A DNA stretch of 55,297 bases from Bacillota bacterium (GTDB lineage: Bacteria; Bacillota; UBA994; UBA5500): assembly GCA_012735505.1 (NCBI GenBank), contig JAAYHE010000070.1, positions 1-55,297 of the forward strand, written 5' to 3'. Below, one piece after another: positions 26,219-31,469 of the stretch. Under the pieces are notes generated by a model that made no database searches, was not told the DNA's origin, and saw only the letters and a list, made by a program, of their open reading frames with translations. Within the stretch, counting starts at the first letter, position 1. Each line of letters opens with the position of its first letter. The position numbers and the translations under genes are program-made.

Positions 26219-26779
26219 GTGAAACTAATAGTTGGGCTGGGCAATCCTGGGCCTAGATATGCTGATACGCGACACAACGTTGGTTTTCGTGTCATTACCC
26301 AGTTGGCTAAAGAGCATAATATCAAGGTGACTGGTAGCCTGGGCCCCGCTATTGTTGGCGAGGGGCAGATAGGCGGCCAGCCGGTGTTGCTGTTACAGCC
26401 GACTACTTTCATGAACAGGAGCGGGCCAGCGGTTACCTATGCCATGCGGCAACGACAGATTGCGCTGGAAGATATCTTGCTCATTTATGATGATTTAGAC
26501 TTGCCACTGGGTAAGATAAGATTACGGGCGACGGGTAGCTCGGGGGGACACAATGGTATGCGTTCGGTCATTGCTGCCCTAGGCACCCAAGAATTTGCCC
26601 GTTTGCGTGTGGGTATCGGTCGCTCAAACCAGTCGGATGTAATCGACTACGTGTTAGAGCCCTTTTCGCGAGAGGAGATACCCATTATTATGCAAGTAGT
26701 GGAAACAGCTAGCGAGGCTGTAGCTGTATGGGTCAGCCATGGCATAGCACAGGCTGCATCCCAGTTTAATGGTCTGTAA
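26219..26779 (+). CDS. pth: Peptidyl-tRNA hydrolase
   Basis: This 186-residue enzyme frees tRNA from peptidyl-tRNA dropped by ribosomes. MKLIVGLGNPGPRYADTRHNVGF includes Asn9 and catalytic His19; LLQPTTFMNRSGPAV and LIYDDLDLPLGKIRLRATGSSGGHNGMRS are conserved. The start is GTG behind GGAGG. In B. subtilis this is spoVC, whose mutation also blocks sporulation, and it is also upstream of fin-mfd. Confidence 0.96.
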   Translation: MKLIVGLGNPGPRYADTRHNVGFRVITQLAKEHNIKVTGSLGPAIVGEGQIGGQPVLLLQPTTFMNRSGPAVTYAMRQRQIALEDILLIYDDLDLPLGKIRLRATGSSGGHNGMRSVIAALGTQEFARLRVGIGRSNQSDVIDYVLEPFSREEIPIIMQVVETASEAVAVWVSHGIAQAASQFNGL

Positions 26780-27130
26780 GAGGCAAGGCTAATACGCTGG
26801 GCTACAAAGCCGCGAAGCGAGGTTGGTCAAGACCATGCTTGTGCGCCTGTGCTTCCTCGGCCTGGGGCAACTGCTTGGGCCCTGAAGCAGGCTCCAACGA
26901 GCCTACGCAGTAACCCCAGGCTGCGTGTTAGCACGCAGGTTGCGGTTTACGGATGACGCGCAACGCCTTGCTTGCCAGGCCGGTGCTAAGAGCCAACGCA
27001 GGCGCTACGCCCTTACAGATATAGCGCCATGTGGGTACGAGGTGTAGGGGCATTTTGAAACACGCCCGCCCGGGAGGCGGCAGGCCGGCCGGGGAACAGT
27101 TTTGTTCCAACCCGCGTCCTTAGTGAATGT
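26780..27130. repeat. Gene-free gap after pth with dispersed repeat copy 1
   Basis: No gene is seen in this ~350-bp GC-rich gap. It contains a 22-bp block (26946-26967, TTTACGGATGACGCGCAACG...) and a 50-bp block (27047-27096, GGGGCATTTTGAA then CGCCCGCCCGGGAGGC). Both recur after the spoIID-like gene, with 2 and 5 mismatches, in the same order and at similar spacing. CATGCTTGTGCGCCTGT (26834) and GGCTCCAACG (near 26890) resemble blocks in the gap after cphA. There is no transposase or clear terminal repeat. Confidence 0.75.
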
Positions 27131-27144
27131 AAGGAGGTTTGCCT

Positions 27145-27543
27145 GTGCGCTCGCTCATAGCGTTGGCCATCGCTAGCGGGATGGCCTATGTGGCCAATCG
27201 GTATCTAGTATCACGGTTGGGTACTATCGCATTGATTACCCTAGTGCCACCTTTGGAGGAGCTCCTCAAAACAGGTGCAACGATTCTGCTGCAGGCCTCG
27301 ATTTGGTGGGTACATCTAGGCTTTGGTCTATTAGAAGCAGCCGTTAATCTGGGGCGCAACCCTCGCAGTTTGCCAGAGGTGGGTTTTCTTGCAGCCATAG
27401 GCAGCATAGTAGGACACGCTGCTTTTGGCGTTATCACTTTGTGGGGGCAAAGCAGGAGTGGCCATTGGCTGGGAGGATTAGCCTTAGGTAGTGGCCTGCA
27501 TTTGCTGTGGAATATGTGGGTTGTACGGCTAAGTGAATGTTGA
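27145..27543 (+). CDS. Small membrane protein resembling a PrsW-type intramembrane protease
   Basis: This 132-residue protein is almost all membrane helix (about five segments). It carries the pattern of PrsW/CPBP-clan glutamic membrane proteases: PPLEELLKT (Glu38-Glu39-x-x-Lys42), GFGLLEA (Glu64), GHAAFG (His91) and HLLWN (His119-x3-Asn123). It is much shorter than PrsW proteins I know (~200 or more residues). AAGGAGG (27131-27137) fits GTG 27145 best; TTG 27139 is also in frame. It is 11 bases before fin, an anti-sigma factor gene. The family match is by motif only; proteolytic activity and substrate are inference. Confidence 0.55.
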   Translation: MRSLIALAIASGMAYVANRYLVSRLGTIALITLVPPLEELLKTGATILLQASIWWVHLGFGLLEAAVNLGRNPRSLPEVGFLAAIGSIVGHAAFGVITLWGQSRSGHWLGGLALGSGLHLLWNMWVVRLSEC

Positions 27544-27554
27544 GGAGGATTAGC

Positions 27555-27779
27555 ATGCGGGTGCGTTACGTCTGTGATAGCTGCCGGGATGTTATCTATG
27601 AGGTAGAGGATCCAAGTATCACTGAAGAAAAGATAGGCCTCGACCTTTTGACGCCGGAAGAAAGACAGTATTTTGTAGAGAATCAGACCGATGCAGTCGT
27701 TTTGTCTATCCTGTGCGACGAATGTTCTGCTTTGCTTTCCGGTACCGATTGGCCCGAAAAGCCGTCGCTATTACACTAG
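27555..27779 (+). CDS. fin: Anti-sigma-F factor Fin (YabK)
   Basis: This 74-residue zinc-type protein has YVCDSC at the start, LGLDLLTPEERQYFVENQ in the middle and ILCDECSALL near the end. This is the same layout as B. subtilis Fin (CxxC, LG...LTxEER, CxxC), which inhibits sigma-F after engulfment and helps the switch to sigma-G. Its position pth-[ ]-fin-mfd-spoVT also matches. GAGGAGG precedes ATG 27555. Sequence similarity is moderate, but motif plus synteny make the call good. Confidence 0.85.
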   Translation: MRVRYVCDSCRDVIYEVEDPSITEEKIGLDLLTPEERQYFVENQTDAVVLSILCDECSALLSGTDWPEKPSLLH

Positions 27780-27810
27780 TCTCCAGAAAAAAGCTTTAGC
27801 TGCTATATGC

Positions 27811-27845
27811 GCCACCTTGGGAATAGTTCTAAGGTGGTGTTTTTC
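27811..27845 (+). terminator. Terminator after fin
   Basis: GCCACCTTGGGAA pairs with TTCTAAGGTGGT (27811-27838, wobbles), followed by TTTTT at 27840-27844. Confidence 0.75.
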
Positions 27846-27941: not shown

Positions 27942-30900
27942 ATGAAGAGCCTTATTGCACTTTTGGAGCAAAGTGCCAGCTGGGAAGAGATTCAGCAGGC
28001 CTTGGCTAATAAACAAAATAACTTGCTAGTTTCGGGGGTAAGTGGCTCGGCTAAGAGTTTCTTAGGGGCTGGTCTAAAGGCCAGCCAGGGCGGTACCCTC
28101 CTTTACATTGCTCCGAATAGCAATGCGGCGGAGCAAGTTTTTGCCGACATGCAAACCCTATTGCCTGAAGAAAATCTGTATTTTTTCCCTGCCCGTGAAA
28201 ATCCCCTCTATGGCATAGCAGCTCTCAGCCCTGAACTGATGGCTGAACGGCAAAAAACCCTCTATGCACTTAGTAGCGGGGAGCCTTGTTTGGTTGTCTC
28301 ATCTTGGGACGCACTTTTTTATCGCTTGCCGGTACCTTCTGTATTTAGCTCGCAGGGGATAGAGTTGTTCTATGGCCAACAACTCGCTTTGGCAGACCTG
28401 ACCCGCCTATTGGTGCAGGGAGGATACGAGCGAGTGCCTCTAGTGGAACACCCGGGCCAATACAGCCAACGGGGCGGCATAATCGACATTTATGGGCCTG
28501 GCTATGATTGGCCTGTGCGTATAGAATTTTTTGGTGATGAGATTGATCTCATCAAACAATTTGACTTGACTAGTCAACGTTCGTTAGCTAATGTGGAACG
28601 AGTGTTAGTCTTACCTGCGCAGGAGAGCGTTTGGCCCGAGTCTGCTAATGTAGCCGGCTTACAACGCCTAGAAACAGCCCTTGCTCAGGCGATAGAAGCT
28701 AACCCTTCGCTAGCTAGCTCGCTAACAGATCACGTAGGGGCTGATTTGGAGCGGCTACAGGCGGGACTAGTCTTTCCTGGGAGAGAGCGTTATCTGCCAT
28801 TTTTTCTAGAGGAAGACTGGAGCCTATTAGACTATTTGCCGCCTACAGCGCGAGTAATAATCGACGAACCCACGAAGGTCTGGGAGCAAGCCGAGGCCGA
28901 TTATAAGTTGTTCATGGAGGGCTTTACCGGCCTATTGGAAGAGGGGCGGGTGCTGCCAGCCCATGCTGATATCGTGCTGTCGCCGGAAGAGCTCCTAAAA
29001 CGTTTGCCCCGTGGGCGAACCCTATTTTTTTCCCTCTTTCCCCGGCGGCCTGCGCCTTGGCGCATCGACCAGCACGTTTCTTTCTTAGCTAAAGGGGTGC
29101 AGAGCTTTCACGGACAATCTGCCTTTTTGCGGCAGGAAACTAGCCGCTTATTAGATAATGACTATCGAGTGGTGATCATGTCTGGCGACAGTGAAGGGCA
29201 AGAGCGAATGTTAGCCTATTTGCGCGAGGAGGGCTTAACCCCGCTCTTGCTGCAAGCCGGCGCTGACCTGCCACCAGCAGGAACCATTGCCGTGGCCGCC
29301 GGGCATTTGGTTAGCGGCTTTGAATTCCCGGACATGCGCTTGTGTGTGTTTGCAGCTGGCGACATTATGCAAAGGCTGCGCCCGAGCAGGAGGGTGTGCC
29401 TGAGCCAGGCAGAAGGAGCCCGCTTAGCCAATTATCGCGATCTTAACGTTGGCGATTACGTAGTGCATGTGCACCACGGTATCGGCCAATATTTAGGCAT
29501 CACCACCCTAGAAATAGGAGGGCTACATAGAGACTATTTGCAGATCAAGTATGCAGGCAAAGATAAACTATATGTGCCAACCGATCAAATAGATTTGTTG
29601 CAGAAATATGTTGGGGCAGAGGGACGCACTCCCAAGATTTATAGCTTGGGCGGTGGGGATTGGCAAAAGGTTAAGAGCCGAGTGAAAAAGTCGGTGCAGG
29701 AGATGGCCAAAGAACTCTTGGCTCTCTACGCGGCTCGAGAAAATGAAGCGGGCTTTAGTTTCCCTCCCGACGACGAGTGGCAGCAACAAATGGAGGCGCG
29801 TTTCCCCTATCGGGAGACTGATGACCAATTGCGGGCCATCACCGATATTAAAGCTGATATGGAATCGCCCAAGCCTATGGATCGCCTCTTATGTGGAGAC
29901 GTAGGCTATGGGAAAACTGAAATTGCCGTTCGGGCTGCCTTTAAGGCGGCGACGGCGGGCAAGCAAGTAGCTGTGTTGGTGCCGACCACTATTTTAGCCG
30001 AACAGCACTATAACACTTTTAAAGAGAGATTTGCTGGCTTCCCGTTGGAATTGGGGCTATTGTCTCGTTTTCGTAGCCCAGCTGCCAACCGAGAAACCGT
30101 GCGTCGCCTAGCACAGGGTTTAGTAGACGTCGTCATCGGTACCCACCGCTTACTACAGTCAGACGTTAAGTTTTGGGATCTAGGGTTGCTCATTATTGAC
30201 GAAGAACAGCGTTTTGGCGTCAAGCATAAAGAGCGTTTAAAGATGTTGAAGCAGAATGTAGATACCCTTACGTTGACTGCTACTCCCATACCAAGGACCT
30301 TGCATATGGCTTTGGTAGGCATGCGAGATATGAGTGTAATCGAAACTCCTCCCGAGGATCGTTTTCCCGTGCAAACCTATGTGGTGGAGCATAACGACGA
30401 ATTAGTGCGTAATGCCATTCGTCGCGAATTACAACGTCAGGGGCAAGTATATTACGTGCATAACCGGGTGCGCAGTATTCGGCGCGTAGCTAGTCGTTTG
30501 GCCGAATTGGTCCCGGAAGCGCGTATCGCTTACGGGCACGGGCAGATGAGCGAAGAACGACTAGAGCGGCTAGTGCTGGACTTTGTAGCAGGGGAATATG
30601 ACGTTTTGGTTACCACGACTATCATAGAATCAGGTCTAGATATTCCCAACGTTAATACCATGATAGTGGAGGATGCAGACAAGTTCGGTTTGGCTCAGCT
30701 TTACCAGCTCCGCGGTCGTGTCGGCCGCTCTAATCGGGTGGCATTTGCTTATTTCACTTATCGGCCGCAAAAGTCGTTATCAGAAGTAGCCGAGAAAAGG
30801 CTGCAGGCTATCAAAGAGTTTACCGAATTAGGTGCTGGATTTAAGATAGCTATGCGCGACCTGGAGATTCGCGGTGCTGGTAATATATTGGGCCCAGAGC

Positions 30901-31469
30901 AGCACGGGTTCATGGTGGCTGTAGGCTTCGACCTCTACTGCCAGCTGTTAGAAGAGGCTGTGCGAGAGCTGAAAGGACAGGCACCAGTAAAGAAAGCGGA
31001 TGTAGAGCTAGACCTATCGCTAGATGCATTTATCCCCGATCGTTATATTCGCGATGGCAAGCAGAAGGTGGAAATGTATAAGAAAATCCGGGCCGCGACC
31101 GAGCTGGCCGATGTTGATGACATCGAGGATGAAATGTTCGATCGTTACGGTAACATGCCGGAGAGTGTTCGCAATTTGCTCTTGGCCACCCGCATGCGGG
31201 TTTTGGCGCAGAAATTAGACATAGGGCGGATAGTGATAGGGGAAGACAGCTTGCAGATACAGTTAGCTGCAGGCGCCTACTGGTTGCCTGAACAGATAGA
31301 GTTCCTTTACCGTCAGACAGAGGGGCAAATGCGGCTGCAGCCTAACAAGCCGGGAGTATTTGTCTGGCGCCAGACAAACACTTTTCCCGTCGCTATGGCT
31401 AAGCGATGGGTACAACTGATGACTGAACTTGTCGAGTTAATGCCAGAGGGGGAAAAAGCTATTGGGTAA
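27942..31469 (+). CDS. mfd: Transcription-repair coupling factor
   Basis: This 1175-residue ATP-dependent translocase removes stalled RNA polymerase and recruits UvrA. The N-terminal UvrB-like part has [20 protein letters not shown] and [11 protein letters not shown]; the RNAP-interacting region has [20 protein letters not shown]; the translocase has Walker [10 protein letters not shown] (residue 652) and [15 protein letters not shown] (Asp753); the C-terminal TRCF domain follows. GGAGGGGGG precedes ATG 27942; the earlier in-frame ATG 27906 has no site. It overlaps the next gene by 8 bp. Confidence 0.97.

Follow-up and report, generated by a model that had tools for sequence, protein, structure and literature searches.

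Immediately upstream of fin, which encodes a homologue of the anti-sigma-F factor, the genomic DNA analysed here (i.e. a stretch of 55,297 nt, termed the window) contains a short membrane protein gene, ORF X. The questions raised by this locus are what kind of protein X is, whether it is tied to Fin and whether it could act in sporulation. A sequence-only reading had suggested a compact PrsW-like membrane protease beside Fin, with a possible part in forespore signalling. All coordinates are positions in the window, all features lie on the forward strand and residue numbers are those of the window X protein.

ORF X and its family of orthologues

ORF X (27145..27543) encodes a five-helix membrane protein of 132 amino acids, assigned to a PrsW/CPBP-like superfamily from its homologues and an AlphaFold2 model. 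The gene has a GTG start and a TGA stop (27541-27543), and a ribosome-binding site (AAGGAGG, 27131..27137) is located 7 bases 5' of the GTG. The GTG at 27145 is a better start than the TTG at 27139 chosen by the program, because the latter lies just 1 base past the ribosome-binding site. The stop codon is 11 bases 5' of fin (27555..27779; Pfam PF10955, E = 5.3e-12), confirming that the two genes abut. The residues named in the sequence-only reading (i.e. Glu38, Glu39, His91 and His119) were all present, as additionally were K42, E64 and N123. Motif 1 (E38-E39-x-x-K42, 27256..27270) is located in predicted helix 2, motif 2 (H57-x-x-F60-G61-x-x-E64, 27313..27336) in predicted helix 3, motif 3 (H91-x-x-F94-G95, 27415..27429) in predicted helix 4 and motif 4 (H119-x-x-W122-N123, 27499..27513) in predicted helix 5.

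A search of 61 relatives with the window protein identified X in 28 genomes. A profile of these 28 members then detected X in 135 of 399 genomes drawn evenly across the phylum, with exactly one copy in each (E-values of 1e-15 to 1e-44) and representation in 56 of the 141 families of the sample. X founds a widespread single-copy orthologous family, present in one third of the sampled phylum, whose predicted active site is intact in all but one broken copy. Members are ~125-145 amino acids in length and homologues are ~25-40% identical to the window protein.

The X proteins from all 135 loci (134 intact and one broken) were aligned. Nine positions, i.e. E38, E39, K42, G61, E64, H91, G95, H119 and N123, were invariant in 134/134 intact members, including all four of the glutamates and histidines whose conservation had been in question. 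G61, E64, H91 and G95 were found in all 135 proteins, F60 in 133, H57 in 128, P35 in 127 and N18 in 123. Nine invariant columns at this level of identity place the motif match far beyond chance.

Several minor features emerged from these comparisons. Position 68 (27346..27348), one turn past the invariant E64, is Asn in the window protein alone and Asp or Glu in the other 134 of the 135 members. The broken copy (L227, G388:C8:32590-35805) is disrupted at both ends, with the motif 1 glutamates and the HxxxN end gone and the middle intact. A contig scan matched seven named loci with a five-row subset of the X family and none with the window protein alone; species of Moorella and of Thermoanaerobacterium are among the carriers of X.

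Relationship of X to intramembrane proteases

Searches of Pfam, NCBIfam, PADLOC and PHROGs with the window protein gave no usable match and nothing over cut-off, with PF13367 (PrsW) absent from the Pfam matches at E <= 10; a PspC match (E = 0.44) was discarded as chance. Neither Pfam nor NCBIfam contains a model for the X family, and no sequence relative was found in the PDB. Amongst the 28 members, the Pfam PrsW-protease model weakly matched 10 (best E = 0.0013, below cut-off), the Rce1-like model (PF02517) weakly matched four and YhfC (PF10086) matched none; no X member passed any Pfam cut-off.

When the 28-row X profile was compared by hhalign with ten PrsW proteins encoded in the same genomes, the E-value was 8.8e-5 (3e-6 with sides swapped) over 95 aligned columns. 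EExxK was in register in this alignment, as were the Glu that follows it, the His and the HxxxN/D at the end. The score of 34.5 exceeded the maximum of 23.9 obtained in 150 column shuffles, in which hydrophobic and polar columns were kept apart, and the scores of 15-17 for reversed profiles. As judged from these profiles, distant homology of X to the PrsW/CPBP/APH-1 superfamily is statistically supported.

Structural models were generated with AlphaFold2 from eight sequences only. Both the window protein (pLDDT 93.1) and the orthologue from Moorella sulfitireducens (pLDDT 92.0) yielded confident models with five helices. In BFVD, CAAX prenyl protease 2 came out on top twice (prob 0.96 and 0.84, with weak E-values). 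In the PDB, the best match of the Moorella model was gamma-secretase APH-1B (8oqy_C; prob 0.85, TM 0.53, E not significant), and the superfamily was absent from the best matches of the window model. Two of the three fold searches thus placed CAAX-protease or APH-1 structures at the top, although the E-values were weak (0.4-0.7 for the CAAX protease and APH-1B matches). CAAX prenyl protease 2 and APH-1B are members of one superfamily (PMC6588880).

Comparison with the known families separates X from each of them. The active site of PrsW lies within a four-helix core, where TMH3 carries EExxK, TMH5 a His and TMH6 HxxxD (PMC4602095). In both PrsW and X, EExxK is followed by GF(G/A)xxE, the helix after that carries a His and HxxxN/D is located in the final core helix; in X this PrsW order of motifs occupies successive core helices of the alignment and model. 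X differs from PrsW in size (132 versus about 220-240 amino acids), in lacking both the N-terminal EP-containing part and the EPxDG stretch, in having shorter loops (26 versus 39 residues from EE to E) and in possessing an extra, nearly invariant H57. The full-length PrsW architecture, with ~200 or more amino acids and extra N-terminal helices, contrasts with the five helices of X. With the CPBP or type II CAAX proteases (Rce1-like, PF02517), X shares a double Glu motif, two functional His residues and HxxxN. Type II CAAX proteases carry EExxxR and lack the TMH5 His (PMC4602095), whereas all intact X members carry EExxK, fall below the PF02517 cut-off and have a His in helix 4. APH-1, which belongs to the same superfamily, is eukaryotic and larger, functions as a scaffold and has QExxR where X has EE.

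From the motif pattern, the Pfam cut-offs and the architecture, X is therefore a superfamily member that is PrsW-like in motif but is not PrsW. The host genome also contains a separate true PrsW (G000:C8), so that X is no substitute for this protein. The most fitting reading makes X a compact family of its own, new to the PrsW/CPBP/APH-1 superfamily of glutamic intramembrane proteases. The proposal of a compact PrsW-like protease thus held for the superfamily, for PrsW as the closest relative by profile alignment and for the invariance of the predicted catalytic residues, but not for membership of PrsW or any other curated family by Pfam cut-off.

Genomic context of X and its relation to Fin

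In the window, X is preceded by pth (spoVC, 26219..26779) and followed by fin (yabK), a terminator-like hairpin (27809..27840; 14 pairs followed by a T run, -20.9 kcal/mol, z = -4.7) and mfd (27942..31469), a DNA-repair gene. X and fin form a pair ending at this strong terminator hairpin. Across the family, mfd was the most constant neighbour, being located 3' of X in 125 of the 132 loci with room for it, while pth, the most frequent upstream neighbour, was found 5' of X in 96/128; loci without pth upstream mostly still had X beside mfd. X is best explained as a gene inherited vertically in clostridia-type spore formers, in which it has stayed at the pth-mfd locus. Exceptions were observed in two related genomes (L015 and L085), where X is no longer at the mfd locus and the gene 3' of it was read from sequence as a GerMN-type lipoprotein, and in L024, where an aroE-like gene follows X.

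The gap between the pth and X frames has a median of ~37 bases. The window gap (26780-27130) is unusually long for this locus at ~360 bases and is GC-rich; no repeats, Rfam match or sigma-70 site were detected within it. Similarly, there was no Rfam match around the X locus and no sigma-70 promoter in a scan of the window.

In ~30/135 loci, X and mfd were separated by a small frame that resembles Fin and has two CxxC pairs; elsewhere mfd lay directly 3' of X. At four loci (L011, L012, L017 and L095), the fin position is occupied by small frames that have both CxxC pairs and yet a poor or no Pfam Fin score, which suggests that Fin may be more widespread than the Pfam model shows. In genomes lacking X, the pth-mfd gap is short or contains fin alone. 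X shares the chromosomal slot of Fin in the pth-fin-mfd locus of Bacilli, with fin adjacent where both occur; X is an extra gene relative to that arrangement and was absent from the Fin-bearing Bacilli-like genomes examined.

A specific tie between X and Fin had been offered only as a guess in the sequence-only reading and was not supported by this comparison. By Pfam and a manual tally, fin was present in 17/135 genomes with X and 27/264 without X (Fisher p = 0.5), each gene occurring with or without the other, and Fin was rejected as a specific partner since co-occurrence was at chance level. As fin is no commoner with X and is found in only some X loci, Fin is an occasional occupant of the X slot. 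Fin is best explained as an operon neighbour in some lineages and is not a likely substrate of X.

Association with sporulation and possible function

SpoIVA was detected in 129/135 genomes with X as compared to 207/264 without X (p = 2e-6). The six exceptions are mostly incomplete assemblies and all contain SpoIIR and/or SpoVAC, so sporulation genes are present in 135/135 X genomes. The converse fails: the 207 SpoIVA-positive genomes without X indicate that many spore formers lack X, which is therefore not essential to sporulation in general. As genomes share ancestry, the p-values given here, including those for promoter sites below, are too small.

Regions upstream of X were searched with a pattern derived from the sigma-F consensus, i.e. 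G[TCA]ATA, 14-16 bases and GGNNANA[AC]T. The spacing between sigma-F boxes is commonly 15 (PMC5942855). Sites were found 5' of X in 9/134 loci (~7%) as compared to 3/1933 other same-strand windows (p = 3e-9), with 1/1933 on the opposite strand, 0/95 5' of pth and 0/124 5' of mfd (0/219 together). Three related sites had been seen before the first box of the pattern was widened at its second position, and exclusion of these sites gave p = 4e-6; the pattern chosen beforehand matched 5/132 X loci as compared to a mean of 0.8 and a maximum of 4 in shuffled sequences. Several of the nine loci (L013, L016 and L022 among them) have no Fin-like frame, so that fin promoters alone do not account for the signal. 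No sigma-F-type site was present in the 160 bases 5' of X in the window. A sigma-G pattern was also tried and rejected, as the only sites matched fit sigma-F better. At L192, L176 and L180, the strict sigma-F-type pattern also occurred outside the region upstream of X. These data provide moderate support for a sporulation role of X: the suggested forespore connection is supported in part, with sporulation genes in every X genome and sigma-F-type sites enriched across the family, although no such site was found in the window itself.

Proteolytic control is central to sporulation, as exemplified by SpoIVB, SpoIVFB and SpoIIGA, and control in the forespore differs between clostridia and B. subtilis. 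We consider the chances about even that X is an active intramembrane protease, as predicted, that is made in the forespore and has a sporulation role. By analogy to the roles of the Glu pair, His and Asn in Rce1 catalysis, E38/E39 of helix 2, together with H91 of helix 4 and H119 of helix 5, would activate water, the reaction intermediate would be stabilised by N123, and the protein cut by X would be a membrane protein of the sporulating cell. That X is catalytic, how it is placed in the membrane, that it is made in the forespore and that it has a substrate in sporulation are all inferred. A more specific version is tentative and clearly the less probable of the two: here, X would be a glutamic intramembrane protease of the forespore, so far overlooked in clostridia-type bacteria, that cleaves a protein of the forespore membrane at a fixed point in sporulation.

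Other functions were weighed against the same evidence. X could be an active protease with a general role in the envelope, in quality control or in the signalling of stress, comparable to that of B. subtilis PrsW, which cleaves the anti-sigma factor RsiW; the restriction to spore formers would then simply reflect the clades in which X occurs. We give this about one chance in four: X sits among the vegetatively needed genes glmU, prs, pth and mfd, the gap to pth is often short, which suggests read-through, and most members lack a sigma-F-type site just as many spore formers lack X, but an envelope function leaves the occurrence of sporulation genes in every X genome and the enrichment of sigma-F-type sites 5' of X, and not of pth or mfd, to be accounted for. 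It is rather unlikely that X has the superfamily fold and residues and performs no proteolysis, acting as a membrane scaffold or binding subunit in the manner of APH-1 in gamma-secretase. The very small size of X, the APH-1B match of the second (i.e. Moorella) model and the deviation of the window copy at position 68 would fit such a subunit, whereas catalysis is the easier explanation for EExxK glutamates and two histidines that never vary in intact members.

Two further explanations appear highly improbable. In one, X acts on or with Fin as a two-gene switch over sigma-F, as the arrangement of the window pair ahead of its terminator and the Fin-like frames at other loci might suggest; against this, Fin is a soluble protein, the two genes are distributed independently, mfd directly follows X in many loci and fin occurs without X in other genomes. 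In the other, X would be a small membrane protein from outside the superfamily that matches the motif by coincidence, as might be supposed from the lack of a curated family match for the window protein, but this is countered by invariance over 134 members, the controlled profile comparison and the fold matches.

A search of openly licensed papers found no description of the X family, and neither PrsW nor YabK nor mfd is mentioned in a survey from 2012 that covers the sporulation genes of Bacilli and Clostridia (PMC3533761). The family is real, well conserved and part of a known superfamily, and is apparently undescribed; X may be an enzyme of spore development that has so far gone unnoticed. 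If X is such a forespore protease, it would provide a proteolytic checkpoint that B. subtilis lacks and be among the smallest proteins of its superfamily. At 125-145 residues, X may represent the PrsW/CPBP fold pared down to its catalytic core, a size that would suit structural work.
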